Shown in pieces: positions 2,807 to 13,622 of a stretch of DNA of 23,557 bases (positions are counted from its first letter, which is position 1; each line of letters starts with the position of its first letter). Below the pieces are notes generated by a model. It saw nothing but the letters and a program-made list of their open reading frames with translations. It was not told the DNA's origin and ran no database searches. This DNA comes from a virus. Where the stretch lies: the IMG/VR virus record IMGVR_UViG_3300046692_000002, positions 1 through 23,557 of that record; one strand, given 5' to 3'. A program made the position numbers and the translations under genes.

Positions 2807-3694
2807 TCAGCCCAGGCCCAGACGTTCGAGCGCCTGAGTTGGCGACCAGTCCGCAGCCTTCACTGCCTCCTGCACCTGCGGCTTGGTCATGACGTCCAGC
2901 TTGGAGAAGCGGGTCACGTCCGGGTGGCAGCGCATCATGGCGTAGCTCCGGGCGGTCGGGTCACACGGACCCATGCGCTGCTTCACGCAGGCGACTCGGT
3001 ACTCCAGCGACGTCGGGTCGAGAGCCACCGTCAGGGACAGCTCGGGCTTCTCGGAGAGACCGCCCTTCACCTGGTCACGGGACGGGGGAGCCCACGGGTC
3101 GCTCTTGGCTTCCCAGCTCTTGTCGCTCGCGTGGTGGAGGATGATCACCGTCGCGCCGGTAGCGCGGGCCAGCTCGGTCGCGTTGGACATGACCGCCATC
3201 TGCTCGGTGTAGTCCGACTCGGCACCCTCGAAGTCCATCAGGTTGTCGAAGACGATCACCTCGGGGTAGGCGTCCCACAGCTCGACGTACGCCTCCAACT
3301 CCTCATCGACGGCACGCCAGGTGATGGGAGATCCGAAGGAGAAGGTGATGTTCGAGTGGGACAGCGCGTCGATGTAGCCCTGACGGTGCTTGCCGCCCTG
3401 CGCCATGCCAGCCTCGACCATCTCGGTCGTGTCGCCAGTCGCCATCGAGGCGAGGCGCGAGGACGCCGTGAAGGCGCTCATGTCGGCGGAGAAGTAGAGG
3501 GAGGGCAGGTTCATCGACGCCACCCAGAACAGGGCGAAGCCGGACTTCTGCGTGCCGGACCGACCGGCGATCATGATGACCTCGCCGTGGCGAGGACGCA
3601 CGCCCTTCTGGTACAGGGCCTCGAACGCCTCGACGCGGGGGAGCTCTCGTCCCGACTCCGCGTGAAGCGACAGGGACCTTCCAGGGGTGAGCAC
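2807..3694 (-). CDS. RecA/DnaB-fold ATPase, putative replicative helicase
   Basis: 295 residues from a GTG at 3692-3694 that shares one base with the TAG of the deaminase gene (TAGTG). It has a GAGGAG site 7 bases upstream, so longer in-frame starts are unlikely. The Walker A motif is GRSGTQKS at residues 44-51. The Walker B motif is VIVFDN at about 146-151. A later VIILHH segment corresponds to the RecA-fold strand with a polar sensor. Size and motifs suit a single-domain RecA-like ATPase of the DnaB/RepA type: ATP-driven unwinding or loading at the phage fork. The adjacent primase supports helicase function. A recombinase (RecA/Sak4-like) role is the main alternative. Confidence 0.85.
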   Translation of the reverse strand: MLTPGRSLSLHAESGRELPRVEAFEALYQKGVRPRHGEVIMIAGRSGTQKSGFALFWVASMNLPSLYFSADMSAFTASSRLASMATGDTTEMVEAGMAQGGKHRQGYIDALSHSNITFSFGSPITWRAVDEELEAYVELWDAYPEVIVFDNLMDFEGAESDYTEQMAVMSNATELARATGATVIILHHASDKSWEAKSDPWAPPSRDQVKGGLSEKPELSLTVALDPTSLEYRVACVKQRMGPCDPTARSYAMMRCHPDVTRFSKLDVMTKPQVQEAVKAADWSPTQALERLGLG

Positions 3695-4098
3695 TACTTG
3701 TCTCCTCTCACGATCACACGCTCGACTCCAACGGCGGTGATCAGGGTCTGGCAGGCCGGGCACGGCTTGCGGGTCACGTACACCGTCGAGCCCTTCAGCT
3801 CGTCGGGGTGGACACCCTTGTCCAGGGCGTCTCGGATGGCGTTGCGCTCGGCGTGGTCAGCCGCGCAGTTCGCGTAGTCGCTGTCGGGGGCACACTCGTC
3901 GCGGGTCAGTCGACCTCGGGGACAGTTGCCAGCCGTCGCACAGCCGGGGATGCCGGGCGGGAGTCCGTTGTACCCCACGCCCAGGATGCGCTTGCGCTTG
4001 TTCAGGATGACGCAGCCCACCTGGGACCGCGTGCAGTCCGCCATCGTGGCCACCTCATCAGCGATGTTCAGCGCCCACTCGTCTCGTTCAGGTCTCAC
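3694..4098 (-). CDS. Deoxycytidylate (dCMP) deaminase
   Basis: 134 residues from a GTG at 4096-4098 behind GAGAGGAGG. The catalytic zinc motif is complete: HAE at 82-84 and CPAC at 113-116 (His82, Glu84 as proton shuttle, Cys113, Cys116). Additional cysteines (near 53, 59, 69 and 78) resemble the second structural zinc site of T4-type dCMP deaminases. The enzyme converts dCMP to dUMP, feeding thymidylate synthesis. Several phages use it to balance dNTP pools during replication. It is preceded by a UUCG-loop terminator, so its expression may be partly separated from the genes upstream. No thymidylate synthase is visible in the window. Confidence 0.93.
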   Translation of the reverse strand: MRPERDEWALNIADEVATMADCTRSQVGCVILNKRKRILGVGYNGLPPGIPGCATAGNCPRGRLTRDECAPDSDYANCAADHAERNAIRDALDKGVHPDELKGSTVYVTRKPCPACQTLITAVGVERVIVRGDK

Positions 4099-4170: not shown

Positions 4171-4605
4171 TCAGTCGAAGTCGGGCGCAGCGTCGAGCGC
4201 CGCGTTGACCTCCGCCTCACGCTTGGTCGCGTAGTCGATGACCTTCTGCTGAGCAGCGCGCTCAGCCTGACGCCACACCCACGCCGGGTAGGCACCCGGC
4301 TTCTTGGCCGGGATCTGGGCCAGGGTCACGATGGTCGCGCCACCGACGATCGCCTCCAGGTCACGGGCGAGGACGGTCTGCTCGATCCTCTGGCCCTTCG
4401 CGATCTCCGGACGGCCAGCGTCCAGGTCGGCCTGCGTCTTGAAGACGGAGACGTCCGCGAGGACCGAGTCCTTCGGGCCGTTCGGGGTCGGACGCTGACG
4501 GTCGAACTGCTTGACCTCGATGAGGATCGCGACCGCGTCGACGTTGTCCTTCGGCTTGAACCAGCCGCCGCCCTGCGTGGGGATGTCCATGAAGTTGAGA
4601 GCCAC
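4171..4605 (-). CDS. Putative OB-fold / single-stranded-DNA-binding protein
   Basis: 144 residues from a GTG at 4603-4605 with AAGGAG 8 bases upstream. The protein begins MALNFMDIP, almost the same as the exonuclease gene at 5289-6257 (MALNFMEIP). The body (about residues 20-115) alternates strands: AVAILIEVKQF, SVLADVSVF, then a GQRIEQTVLA...GGATIVTLAQIPAKKPGAYPAWVW segment. This is a beta-barrel-like pattern consistent with phage ssDNA-binding OB folds. A helical lysine/glutamate-rich tail ends in acidic residues (AAPDFD), as SSB tails often do. Its place among exonuclease, helicase and primase genes supports an ssDNA-binding role. This is inference, since no diagnostic motif is present. 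Confidence 0.8.
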   Translation of the reverse strand: MALNFMDIPTQGGGWFKPKDNVDAVAILIEVKQFDRQRPTPNGPKDSVLADVSVFKTQADLDAGRPEIAKGQRIEQTVLARDLEAIVGGATIVTLAQIPAKKPGAYPAWVWRQAERAAQQKVIDYATKREAEVNAALDAAPDFD

Positions 4606-4671
4606 TGTGAAGTCTCCTTTGTTCTGTGAGTCGATGCTCGGTGTCTGTTGGGGTGGGTGGTGCTGGTCCTG

Positions 4672-5154
4672 CTACGCGGCGCTGAGGGCCTTGCCCTTCG
4701 CCTTCCACGCAGCCATCACGGACGGGTCGGAGAAGAAGCTCTGGTTCTCAGCCCAGAGGCGCTTCAGCGAAGCGACGTCGGTCTGCTTCTCGATCTCGCC
4801 CAGGATGTAGGCGTTGGGGTCCTCGGCCTGCTGGTTGTCAGCGACCGTGTGGACGGGGGTCGAGCTCTGCGCCGCAGCCCAGGGGTCACCGCTCGGTGCC
4901 GGGGCCGGGGGGGCCGCCGCCTCAGAGGGCGGGATGATCGTGCCACCAAGGAAGCGGGCGATGTTGCCCTTCCCGTGGGCCAGGCTGGTCATCTCTACGA
5001 CCAGCTCGCTCAGCGTCAACTCGCTCACACTGTCACGCATGACGCCGAAGTAGGAGATGATGTCCTCGCGGACCTCGTCCGGGCTGCCCTTGAAGACCGC
5101 CCAGGTCTCCTCGTAGCCCTTGCCGTACTTGATGGTGACGGTCAGTTCCCTCAC
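4672..5154 (-). CDS. Hypothetical protein of recombination/replication cluster
   Basis: 160 residues from a GTG at 5152-5154, with GGAG 9 bases upstream and a purine-rich leader. Three regions can be seen. A folded N-terminal part (residues 1-70) runs from RELTVTIKYGKGYEETW to ARFLGG. An Ala/Pro-rich linker follows (about 77-95). A C-terminal helical part (about 112-158) contains DVASLKRLWAENQSFF and DPSVMAAWKAKGKAL. No family is firmly recognised. It is the first gene after the best-matching promoter in the window and sits between exonuclease and putative ssDNA-binding genes, so a recombination-partner or ssDNA-handling role is possible but unproven. The 66 bases between it and the next gene hold no further gene. 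Confidence 0.75.
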   Translation of the reverse strand: MRELTVTIKYGKGYEETWAVFKGSPDEVREDIISYFGVMRDSVSELTLSELVVEMTSLAHGKGNIARFLGGTIIPPSEAAAPPAPAPSGDPWAAAQSSTPVHTVADNQQAEDPNAYILGEIEKQTDVASLKRLWAENQSFFSDPSVMAAWKAKGKALSAA

Positions 5155-5183
5155 GCGGTGTAGCTCCTCTCTCTGTTCTCTCT

Positions 5184-5204
5184 CTGTCTTGGTACAAGTT
5201 ACAC
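5184..5204. repeat. 21-bp operator-like repeat, copy 1
   Basis: Read on the plus strand this copy is CTGTCTTGGTACAAGTTACAC, abbreviated CTGnCTTGnTnCAAGTTACAC in common with the second copy exactly 90 bases away. The two copies match at 18 of 21 positions. The centre is an imperfect-spacer palindrome CTTG-3-CAAG. It covers the -10 element and the expected transcription start, where a repressor would block polymerase. Confidence 0.6.
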
Positions 5205-5224
5205 GATCCGGGGGTCGGTGTCAA
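5196..5224 (-). promoter_or_regulatory. Sigma70-type promoter, TTGACA-17-TAACTT
   Basis: On the minus strand a perfect -35 (TTGACA, 5219-5224) is followed by a 17-base spacer and TAACTT (5196-5201). The expected start of transcription is near 5189, about 35 bases before the GTG of the gene at 4672-5154. It is the best match to the housekeeping sigma consensus in the window. The -10 is embedded in the repeat at 5184-5204. Confidence 0.75.
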
Positions 5225-5273
5225 CCTCCCGGTCCGGCGACTTGCGCCTCCAGTTCGTCGCTACCGCGTCGCC

Positions 5274-5294
5274 CTGACTTGATCCAAGTTACAC
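5274..5294. repeat. 21-bp operator-like repeat, copy 2
   Basis: This copy matches the one at 5184-5204 in 18 of 21 bases, with the same CTTG-3-CAAG inverted repeat followed by TTACAC. It overlaps the stop codon of the exonuclease gene and the -10 of the second promoter. A role as a binding site is inference from its position and symmetry. Confidence 0.55.
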
Positions 5295-5314
5295 ACTCGC
5301 GGCGGAAGAAGCAA
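5286..5314 (-). promoter_or_regulatory. Second, weaker tandem promoter TTGCTT-17-TAACTT
   Basis: The minus strand shows TTGCTT (5309-5314), a 17-base spacer and the same TAACTT (5286-5291) as the downstream promoter, inside the second copy of the 21-bp repeat. The -35 is inside the end of the exonuclease gene and matches the consensus only at TTG. Function is plausible but less certain than for 5196-5224. Confidence 0.4.
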
Positions 5315-6257
5315 CCTCGTTCGCGGTGGCCTGCGTCACGAACGGCTTCATCGCACCTCGGGTGCTTCGTGCCTTGCGGATCTGAAGCGCGAGCTGGGCC
5401 AGTGCCCAGCCGATGTTCAGGTCCACCCAGTACAGGGTGCACTCGCCCGTGCCCGCAGGCAGGTGGACGATGATGCCCCAGTCCTGGTTCACCGGGGGGA
5501 GCGGGCTGTACGCCTTCTCCGCCTCGGCTGCGTCGACCGCCACCTTCTTCCACGCGGCCAGGGCCTTCTTGTCCTGGTGGTCCACGGGGAACTTCGTGTG
5601 GTCGTACTTCTCTCCTCGCGAGTAGATCGCGAGCTGGCTCGCCATCTTCAGCGCGCCGTACTCCACCGACCCTGTCTTCAGGTCGCCGATGAACAGGCCC
5701 GAGATCGGCTTGCCGTCAGGCCCAGGCCCCTCGTACTCGTACGTGCGGTCGAAGGTGCCACCGACGTTGAGCTCGTTGACCACGACGAACTGCTCGACGG
5801 CGTGAACCGTGAGCACCGAGGTGGCCATCATGTAGGCCATCATGTCCTCGACGTCCTTCTGCGGCGTGCCGAAGGGGAGCGGCTTGCCCGCGTCCACGTA
5901 CTCGGAGAGCGTGTGCAGGTGAGTGCCCTTCTCCCGCTTGTCGTTCGCGCCGCTGACATCCACGGCACGCTCGGCGAGAGCGTCGAGCTTCTTCTTGTCT
6001 TCCTTGTCGTTCGGGTCCAGGCCCGCTACTGCGTCCAGGAGGGACGGCTTCTTCGCCGCACCCACAAGCGTCATGCGCTTGCCCCACGTCGTCAGGCTCG
6101 ACTTGTCCTCGATGCAGTCGATGAACGTCGTCGTCCTGGTGTGCCCGACCGGCTTGCCGCCAGCCTTCGGCACGATGAGCGGACGGTCCCAACCGTCACG
6201 CGGCACCGAGTTGTTCGGGTGCGCCTGGTTCGGGATCTCCATGAAGTTCAGGGCCAA
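5289..6257 (-). CDS. RecB/Cas4-like PD-(D/E)xK exonuclease
   Basis: 322 residues. The TTG at 6255-6257 is chosen because GGAGG lies 9 bases upstream and because the resulting N-terminus MALNFMEIPNQ matches that of the gene at 4171-4605. An ATG five codons later is the alternative. Nuclease motifs occur in family order: a His in KGTHLHTLSEY (about 110-120), GGTFD (Asp170), IGDLKTG (Asp192-x-Lys194) and QLAIYS (Gln208 to Tyr212). This is the RecB/Cas4/AddB arrangement. Known members degrade dsDNA ends to make ssDNA for recombination. The protein lacks the four iron-sulphur cysteines of true Cas4. It probably acts in phage recombination with the neighbouring putative ssDNA-binding protein. Confidence 0.88.
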   Translation of the reverse strand: MALNFMEIPNQAHPNNSVPRDGWDRPLIVPKAGGKPVGHTRTTTFIDCIEDKSSLTTWGKRMTLVGAAKKPSLLDAVAGLDPNDKEDKKKLDALAERAVDVSGANDKREKGTHLHTLSEYVDAGKPLPFGTPQKDVEDMMAYMMATSVLTVHAVEQFVVVNELNVGGTFDRTYEYEGPGPDGKPISGLFIGDLKTGSVEYGALKMASQLAIYSRGEKYDHTKFPVDHQDKKALAAWKKVAVDAAEAEKAYSPLPPVNQDWGIIVHLPAGTGECTLYWVDLNIGWALAQLALQIRKARSTRGAMKPFVTQATANEVASSAASV

Positions 6258-6624
6258 GCTGTGTCGCCTCCAGAGTCTGTGTGTCAGTGATCTCTGTCAG
6301 CGCGTCGAGCTCTCTCCGGAACTCCTCGACCATGTCGTCCTCCGCCTGCTGGGCGGGGATGATCGGGGTGAGGTAGATCCGCACCAGTCCGTGCTCCAGG
6401 AGCTCGACGTCACACTCGTCGTACTCCATGAGCTCCAGGCCCCAGCCCGTGAGCTGGTTCAGGACGTGGCCCATGACCTCGGGCTTGTAGCCCGGCGAGG
6501 CGACGATGTGGAAGTCGAACGCCTCCAGGTCGAAGTGGAAGTGGATGGCTCCATCCCGAGTGGTGAAGCTCCTCGGGTCTCCCAGCTTCCTGTTCCATGC
6601 GGGCAGTGCCCTGCGGTACGGCAT
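6196..6624 (-). CDS. Hypothetical protein, first gene of early leftward unit
   Basis: 142 residues from ATG 6622-6624 with AGGAGG 9 bases upstream. The open frame extends 48 codons further, but the extension runs through promoter and repeat sequence and lacks a ribosome site. The protein begins MPYRRALPAWNRKLG. It continues with an alternating strand/helix region (IHFHFDLEAFDFHIVAS, HVLNQLTGWGLELMEYDECDVELLEHGLVRIYLTP) and ends in an acidic Thr/Gly/Pro-rich tail. The tail region overlaps the exonuclease gene by 62 bases, long for this genome. No family is recognised. Being directly behind a predicted promoter flanked by GTGCAAGTTGC repeats, it is likely among the first leftward genes expressed. 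Confidence 0.7.
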   Translation of the reverse strand: MPYRRALPAWNRKLGDPRSFTTRDGAIHFHFDLEAFDFHIVASPGYKPEVMGHVLNQLTGWGLELMEYDECDVELLEHGLVRIYLTPIIPAQQAEDDMVEEFRRELDALTEITDTQTLEATQLGPELHGDPEPGAPEQLGAA

Positions 6625-11655: not shown

Positions 11656-13320
11656 TTACGCCAGTCCCGCCCAGTAGCGGTTGGCCCCGACCTCCATGCT
11701 GGAGACGGTGATGCTGGCCGGTGCTGTCGTGCCCAGGCCAGAGGAGTAGACGCCGAAGCGCCGGACGACCGTGAGGCCGAAGTTGTTCGGGGGCGTGTTG
11801 CCCGCGTTCTCCAACTGGAGGAGCAGCGGCCCGTTCGTCGTGTACTGGAAGCGCCAGACGATGTAGTAGATGCCGGGCGTGAGCGAGACCGAGGAGGTCA
11901 GCGGCACGGAGACGGTCTGGCCACCAGCGGCTGAGACGGTGGGGAACTGGGTCGTGCCGACGATGTCAGCCGTAGTGGCCTTCCTCGTCCCGGCAGTGTC
12001 GTAGATCGCAGCCCAGGAGCCGGTCGTGATGCCGCCCGCGTAGCTGGTGAAGTGGAACGCTACCTTCGAGATCGTCGTCGTCTGCCTCAGTACCACAGCC
12101 GTGACGCGGGCAGAGGTGCCGGGCAGTCGCCCGTCCGACAGGGTCAGCGCCGGGTCGAACGCCCACGCCGCCAGGCCCAGGTCGGCAGGCTCGAACTGCG
12201 GGAGAGACGGACCAGCCGGACCCTGCGGACCGGTGGAGCCAGTCGCACCCTGGATGCCTTGCGGTCCAGCCGGACCAGTCGGACCAGCAGGACCCGTAGG
12301 GCCAGCCGGACCCTGGGGACCAACACCCGCAGGCGTCACCTGGAAGACCGTCCCGTTGCCCTGCTTGATGTAGGGCAAGCCGCCCCGCGAGTAGAGCAGG
12401 ACGCCCTCGTTGGGGAGGGCGGGCTCCCAGGTCATGTCTCGCAGGCCGTGCGCCCCGATGGTCGTGGCCTTCGCGTCGCCCAGGGGCTTGCCGTCGCCGA
12501 AGGCGGTCTGCGCCCACTTGCGGGTGATCGACATGCCGGTCAGGTTGAAGGTGCCGTCGTTGTTCCGGGAGAAGATCCGGAAGTCGGAGCCCGTGCCGTC
12601 ACCGGCAGCCTCGGAGCTGTTCTCCGCCTGGATCGACCAACGCTTCGCGCCGCCCGTCTTGAACGAGAACTCGCGGTACGTGGCAGCCGCACCGTCCACG
12701 CTGAGCTCGCCGCTGAGCGTGCCGCCCGTGGTGGGCAGGGCGTTGACGTCGGCAGCCGACAGGGAGACGGCACCGGTCTTGGTGTTCACCGAGGTGACGC
12801 CGCCAGCCGGACCAGCCGGACCCTGGGGGCCAGTCGGACCAGTCGGGCCGGTAGCCCCGGTCGCGCCTGTCGGCCCAGCGGGACCAGTCGCACCGGTAGC
12901 GCCAGTCGCCCCGGTGTCGCCCTTCGGTCCCTTCAGGTTGCCGATCGGGTTGCCCCAACCAGAGGCACTGCGCTGCCAGATGTCGCCCGTGTCGGTGCGG
13001 AGCAGCATGTCGCCGGGCTTAGTGTCGGTGCTCGACGTCGAGGTGGTGTTCAGGTACCACTTCGATCCACCGACCGGCGAGGCACCGACCTGAGTCCATG
13101 CGCCGGACACCTTGCGGTAGACCGTGAGGTTGGTGCTCGTCACACCGAGGAAGGTCCGGCTGTCGTCCTGGATGTAGACGTCACCGTCGTTGCCCTGCGC
13201 GGCAGTTGGTGCCGTGGTGCCGGACAGGATCACGTTGCCGTTGGACCCGTTCAGGCCGGATGGCCCTGGAGCTCCAGTGAGGCCGGAGACCTCGGGAGCG
13301 GGGATGACGCTGAAGCCCAT
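11656..13320 (-). CDS. Collagen-like tail fibre / minor tail protein
   Basis: 554 residues from ATG 13318-13320, which overlaps the previous stop as ATGA and has a GGAGG site. An upstream in-frame start at 13356 is rejected. A short Gly-x-y stretch (about 13-29) is followed by a globular part (about 45-128). Then come 14 uninterrupted Gly-x-y triplets (131-173), the fibre segment [15 protein letters not shown] and a middle domain (about 175-330), 13 more triplets (334-372), and a C-terminal beta-sandwich (about 380-554). Collagen-like triplets form trimeric stalks in phage fibres, and the flanking domains trimerise or bind the host. It is probably a tail-tip fibre. Confidence 0.88.
12205..12321 (-). 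repeat. Collagen-like repeat block, 13 triplets
   Basis: Thirteen consecutive Gly-x-y triplets (GPQ, GPA, GPT types, with one GIQ). The underlying 9-base GGxCCxxCx units are near-repeats and would allow slippage or recombination. Confidence 0.85.
12802..12930 (-). repeat. Collagen-like repeat block, 14 triplets
   Basis: Fourteen consecutive Gly-x-y triplets ([18 protein letters not shown]) in the fibre gene. The block is rich in GAT/GPT, as in bacterial and phage collagen-like proteins. Confidence 0.85.
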
Positions 13321-13622
13321 CAGGCCACCTCCACTCCTGAGACGTGCACTGCGCATGTGGTCGAACTTGCCTGCACCTTGACGGTGTTCGTCTCCTCGAT
13401 CACCTGCGTGACGTCGAGGGTGAAGATGCCGTTCGCCGGGACGGGGGTGTTCGGGACGATGGCGTAGCCGCCGATCTGGAGCAGGACGGTCGCAGCGGTC
13501 GTGCCGCTGTTGGTCACCACGATGTTGGTGACGATGGTCTTGGTCTTCGTCGGCACGGTGTAGACCGTCGCCAAGCTGGTCGTCGTGTTACCTCGGTAGA
13601 GGCATGTCGGCGTGTTCGCCAC
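13320..13622 (-). CDS. Small beta-rich virion protein
   Basis: 100 residues from a GTG at 13620-13622, three bases after the hub gene stop. The protein is almost entirely Val/Thr/Ala/Ile-rich strands ([56 protein letters not shown]), typical of a single beta-sandwich. No family is firmly recognised. Similar small proteins lie between hub and fibre genes in actinophages and are probably head-decoration or tail-tip components. Its stop overlaps the collagen-like fibre start, so it is likely made together with it, perhaps as an adapter for the fibre. Confidence 0.75.

Follow-up and report, generated by a model that had tools for sequence, protein, structure and literature searches.

A short N-terminal peptide shared by the exonuclease and the SSB-like protein of R4-like Streptomyces phages changes in step in both proteins and is a candidate docking motif

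The DNA analyzed here (the window, 23,557 nucleotides in full) is an IMG/VR contig from an R4-like Streptomyces phage (Arquatrovirinae, near Camvirus). Three genes on its minus strand are transcribed in the order exonuclease, middle protein, and SSB-like protein (Table 1), and they are followed downstream on the same strand by genes for a dCMP deaminase, a DnaB/RecA-like helicase, a Holliday-junction resolvase, and parts of a primase. By profile detection, the exonuclease, the middle protein, the SSB-like protein, and the helicase form a core cassette, and the lineages with a phrog_1288 protein include P. acnes phages. Elsewhere in the window, positions 11656-13356 encode a tail protein with collagen-like G-x-y repeats.

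Table 1. Positions in the window of the two tagged proteins, their start signals and the candidate partners
Feature	Positions	Strand	Basis
Exonuclease, Cas4/MGME1-type PD-(D/E)XK, phrog_466, TTG start	5289..6257	-	profile E 5.8e-95 and AF2 model
Exonuclease N-terminal tag MALNFMEIPNQ	6225..6257	-	sequence; homologues in 124 loci; predicted disordered
Exonuclease ribosome-binding site GGAGG	6267..6271	-	sequence
SSB-like OB-fold protein, phrog_1288, GTG start	4171..4605	-	profile E 1.1e-62 and AF2 model
SSB-like protein N-terminal tag MALNFMDIPTQ	4573..4605	-	sequence; homologues in 123 loci; predicted disordered
SSB-like protein ribosome-binding site AAAGGAG	4614..4620	-	sequence
Middle protein, phrog_3912, candidate partner	4672..5154	-	adjoins exonuclease and SSB genes in all phrog_1288 lineages checked
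DnaB/RecA-like helicase, phrog_243, candidate partner	2807..3763	-	conserved fourth cassette member

The exonuclease matched the phrog_466 profile over its nuclease core, and its AlphaFold2 (AF2) model (mean pLDDT 88.3) was matched by Foldseek to human MGME1, Dna2, and Cas4, with which it has the PD-(D/E)XK fold in common. The SSB-like protein matched phrog_1288, a family labelled "unknown function", over its full length (residues 1-144). Its model (pLDDT 88.5) is an OB fold whose closest solved structure is the SSB P12 of phage PRD1 (Z 7.2, a middling score, at 13% identity and with the tag region unaligned); many SSBs and PriB followed among the structure matches, in which OB-fold SSBs dominate. 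No solved structure matching either protein by sequence was found, and the two models were built from 38 and 45 homologues. The predicted fold supports the earlier note, which had called the small protein a putative ssDNA-binding protein, and we describe it as OB-fold and SSB-like. A homologue in Cutibacterium phage CAP 12-3 bears the depositor's label single-stranded DNA-binding protein, whereas the homologues in Endor1 and Endor2 are annotated as "head-to-tail connector protein", a label that the OB fold and the gene location contradict.

As the earlier note had pointed out, the two proteins begin with nearly the same peptide (9 of 11 residues identical) and continue with unrelated sequence, belonging to different PHROGs and having different folds. 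The starts that the match depends on are well placed, with GGAGG 9 nt upstream of the TTG and AAAGGAG 8 nt upstream of the GTG. Among the 133 starts in the window that are preceded by a ribosome site, that of the exonuclease came closest to the SSB tag (score 43, next 19), and in the whole genome of phage Joe it ranked first of 247 such starts (39, next 18). For a single genome, a 9/11 match obtained by scanning all N-termini is nevertheless not overwhelmingly improbable (a rough estimate is of the order of 0.1), and the case therefore rests on conservation: a peptide of the MALNFM[ED]IP type is kept in both families in about 117 genome copies, which comprise 43 distinct tag pairs. The tag is still recognizable in the homologues of both proteins at 114 viral and 16 prophage loci, and the position of the start codon and the ribosome site are conserved with it. 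The earlier note had allowed that the motif might be absent from homologues or that the internal ATGs might be the real starts, leaving the peptide untranslated. The former does not hold, and many homologues have ATC, CTG, GTA, or AAG as codon 6, so that translation must begin at the first codon; the internal ATG was accordingly excluded as the true start. In some records the exonuclease start is misannotated, which hides the peptide. In Joe (L188 25110-26078), the public annotation of the exonuclease begins at 25161 instead of 25110, 17 codons late, and the deposited protein lacks the tag; the GeneMark start at 25125 is the internal ATG.

A search of N-termini of the kind that the earlier note had proposed was run over the 2.9 million viral contigs of IMG/VR, with a ribosome site, a start codon, and xLN[FL][MI][DE]xP as the pattern. 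It returned 79 sites in 71 stretches, 52 of them in SSB-like proteins and 26 in exonucleases, the remaining one being a spurious 24-residue ORF. When the starts were scored within lineages, the two best in 9 of the 11 lineages tested were exactly those of the exonuclease and the SSB-like protein, by a wide margin; the exceptions are L366 and L414, whose exonuclease starts lack the required type of ribosome site and were unscored. No third tagged protein was found in the whole genome of Joe or in the loci examined from other lineages. Among N-termini, these searches show the tag to be limited to the exonuclease and the SSB-like protein. Both peptides are predicted to be disordered and lie ahead of a confidently folded core: residues 1-11 of the exonuclease have pLDDT below 50, as do residues 1-4 of the SSB-like protein, whose residues 1-10 average 52. 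The linker between tag and core varies in length in the exonuclease, and in the SSB-like protein an invariant GGW segment follows the tag at a fixed distance.

More distant lineages carry other peptides in the same two places. Exonuclease and SSB-like protein begin with MPLIKPSQAV and MAFVKPSANV in L360 (the SSB of L361 with MAFVKPSTNV), with MLIRPSEVV and MALVKPSANV in L362, with MTFIKPSTV and MSTFTFAKPSEF in L323 and L363 (in shorter form, MTFIKPS and MSTFTFAKPS), with MTAGLMKPSQL and MSVFSKPSDF in L364, with MTVTFARPKA and MSFQFAKPTG in L241 and L267, with MALARLDA and MALAKKDT in L243 and L346, with MSPLSLATLPT and MNLATLPT in L247, and with MPLAQ[YH]P and MGLANYR in the Cutibacterium phages L186 and L205. 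In the Woodruffvirus-type lineages L217, L218, and L220, which have an SSB of phrog_870, the N-terminal region of the exonuclease contains DEFDSAG and the SSB begins with it, one exonuclease of this type reading DPFDSAG instead. Over 19 lineages, the exonuclease-SSB score averaged 21.3 within a genome and 11.7 between genomes (permutation p 5e-5, with some starts chosen by the analyst from the ribosome site and the lineages not fully independent), and p was still 5e-5 for the 11 most divergent lineages alone. The match was weak or absent in L365/L338, where the exonuclease start is unclear, in L414 and L187, and for the VDLTP exonucleases of the L203 type; a shared tag was not evident in B-cluster mycobacteriophages (L212, L214), MakoManhole (L215), or phi674 (L216). 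The phrog_870 SSB matches in Streptomyces genomes had no exonuclease nearby by profile and were unusable for pairing, and the SSBs of L261, L262, L265, and L266, likewise with no exonuclease nearby by profile, were left out of the pair comparison.

Within the group that has the window's type of tag, the two copies change in step. Over the 43 distinct pairs, the F/L position was alike in 84% of own-genome pairs against 48% of shuffled pairs, and the following position in 40% against 19%. The F/L covariation persisted when both core distances were removed (partial Mantel r 0.58, p 2e-4), whereas covariation at the M/I position was unsupported after removing phylogeny (partial r -0.02). The F/L p-values need careful reading, because few independent switches occurred (the joint tree has 4 for each tag) and significance is out of reach for a sign test over independent pairs. 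The clearest individual example is that of Lannister, Lika, and Goby, whose type (L011-L018, L020, L021) has a mosaic cassette with an exonuclease core from the lineage with LNL tags and an SSB and a primase near those of Camvirus. Their exonuclease core is 84-89% identical to that of the LNL-tag lineage and 72% to that of the window, and their SSB is 86% identical to that of the window (Camvirus) and 69-75% to that of the LNL-tag lineage. The exonuclease tag, TLNFIDIPTKP, has F as in their own SSB, and the sister exonuclease has SLNLIDIPTKP. This state could have arisen by a point change or by a fine crossover, and whichever it was, the outcome is a matched pair.

The comparisons thus show, as far as sequences can, a peptide that is translated, conserved at the protein level, and changed in step in both proteins. 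The earlier note had proposed a docking or recruitment tag, and the evolutionary evidence supports this strongly, the peptide being disordered, conserved as protein, confined to two proteins, and co-diverging; binding itself is what we infer from it. In our judgement the peptide is probably a short disordered docking motif by which nuclease and SSB address one common site, the receptor probably being the SSB core. A receptor that co-evolves with the tags would be encoded by the phage, presumably within this cassette, where the SSB's own OB core appears the most likely candidate. The N-terminal arm of an SSB would dock on the neighboring SSB protomer along ssDNA, in the manner of the N-domain of T4 gp32, and the exonuclease would insert itself into the SSB filament by means of its own copy of the arm. 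In this way the tagged exonuclease could be brought to ssDNA coated with SSB, or kept there, while the phage replicates or recombines its DNA.

Comparison with the neighboring genes bears on the choice of receptor. The F/L changes of the exonuclease tag require 5 steps on the exonuclease tree, 2 on the SSB tree, and 3 each on the helicase, primase, and middle-protein trees. With exonuclease-core distance removed, the distance between exonuclease tags followed that between SSB cores with partial r 0.31, and the values were 0.27 for the helicase, 0.24 for the primase, 0.20 for the resolvase, 0.13 for the repressor, and 0.12 for the middle protein. The differences are small. Because recombination moves SSB, helicase, and primase together, these comparisons favor the SSB core as the receptor and do not prove it. 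Residues of neighboring genes that separate the F from the L clades were also considered; many lie in the helicase and the primase, where block recombination explains them, and they were uninformative.

The middle protein (phrog_3912/phrog_1890), which the earlier note had named as a possible partner, might instead be the shared receptor, a two-domain bridge that binds the same peptide on exonuclease and SSB. Its gene lies between the other two and was found in every phrog_1288 lineage checked, the P. acnes phages included, so its place in the whole core cassette speaks for the suggestion; however, of the neighboring replication genes it tracks the exonuclease tag least. In phages that have no separate middle gene, the exonuclease (L187 3932-4975 and L216 3779-4912) ends in a helical extension with a weak resemblance to the C-terminus of the middle protein, but the fusion signal was not significant in a wider search, and a fusion of the middle protein to the exonuclease C-terminus in other phages was set aside as a weak match. 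We therefore regard a bridging middle protein as fairly unlikely. Docking of both tags on the phage DnaB-like helicase, or on the primase, would bring nuclease and SSB to the fork, much as helicase tails contact the polymerase in T7, and the helicase is an invariant cassette member whose correlation with the exonuclease tag comes close to that of the SSB. Its tree fits slightly worse than the SSB tree, however, and its linkage to the SSB accounts for the correlation equally well, which makes a helicase receptor quite unlikely. It is very unlikely that the tag binds the sliding clamp (beta) of the host. ALN[LF]x resembles the clamp-binding QL[SD]LF, with L-x-[LF] spacing in the Streptomyces phages, and R4-like phages appear, from the gene list of Joe, to have no DNA polymerase of their own. 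Yet the host clamp is conserved, whereas distant lineages swap the motif entirely (KPS, LATLPT, ALA[RK]xD); this, together with the absence of the key Q, in whose place stands A, T, S, P, or V, argues against a clamp-binding motif, and a host partner would leave the coordinated change of the two tags unexplained.

The similarity could, finally, be a feature of the nucleic acid with no selected peptide behind it, either a common translational operator or a duplicated or converted 5' end, and the two start regions of the window do align well as DNA. At tag positions with the same residue in exonuclease and SSB, however, 123 of 189 codon pairs were identical, and independent choice of codons would give 119.8. 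In distant core-cassette and prophage lineages (L360, L361, L363, L364, L346, L256, L259, L205, L186, and L187), the shared residues mostly have different codons, none of four being alike in L360 and L361, and upstream sequences differ; among the distant lineages compared, only the Woodruffvirus-type pairs share many codons. Since the agreement is that of unlinked codons, recent gene conversion and an RNA operator were ruled out, and we give an explanation at the nucleic-acid level hardly any credence. Start, ribosome site, and codon choices together show that selection, as read from these alignments, acts on the amino acids and not on the DNA. The tags are no more constrained than the cores (pN/pS 0.28/0.51 for the exonuclease tag and 0.28/0.42 for the SSB tag), as would be expected for a drifting motif.

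Docking of an SSB arm on the next protomer has a precedent in phage T4, where the N-domain of gp32, its cooperativity arm, attaches to the core of the gp32 molecule beside it on ssDNA (PMC12893549). Like the SSB-like protein here, gp32 has its arm N-terminal to an OB core, but the gp32 arm contains the basic LAST motif (K/R)3(S/T)2, which is absent from all tags described here. We know of no nuclease that shares a gp32-type arm. In phage T7, the tails of the helicase gp4 contact patches on the gp5 polymerase (PMC8472574), which shows that flexible tails can serve as contacts within a phage replisome. The tail of a second T7 replication protein, gp2.5, is equivalent to that of gp4. Two different proteins of one phage with similar flexible ends for a single surface are also what we propose for nuclease and SSB, although the T7 tails are C-terminal and strongly acidic with an aromatic last residue, whereas the present tags are N-terminal, mainly hydrophobic with P, and variable between lineages. 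The C-terminal tip of bacterial SSB (DDDIPF), which recruits ExoI, RecO, and RecQ, is likewise a short disordered SSB peptide that serves nuclease recruitment; there, however, the client has a pocket, whereas here the nuclease carries the peptide too, and at its N-terminus. Dna2 is directed by RPA, but we know of no tag common to a Dna2-type nuclease and RPA. The tag fits none of the classes tested (LAST motif, acidic C-tail, and clamp motif), and no prior description of such a shared tag was found in the literature (open-access papers). A shared docking peptide is of a known kind, and to our knowledge its N-terminal placement on nuclease and SSB and its lineage-specific co-divergence are new.

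A further possibility, which we hold somewhat tentatively, is that the docking peptide acts as a lineage-specific "password" on nuclease and SSB: with it the SSB would assemble into its own filament, and the nuclease would gain entry by mimicking it, and as the peptide drifts or is replaced both carriers would follow. Gene exchange between phages would then be limited, and the co-diverging tag suggests why certain gene combinations survive recombination. Docking peptides evolve quickly and are therefore hard to find. The same peptide on two unrelated proteins, changing in step, lets evolution mark a function and predicts the sharing of a partner, and it offers a direct way into the coupling between Cas4-type phage exonucleases and ssDNA-binding proteins in actinobacteriophages. 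Separately from the N-terminal tag, the SSB-like family has a second conserved element, the C-terminal tip P[DS]FD (window 4174-4185), which recalls the acidic, Phe-containing tail of bacterial SSB.
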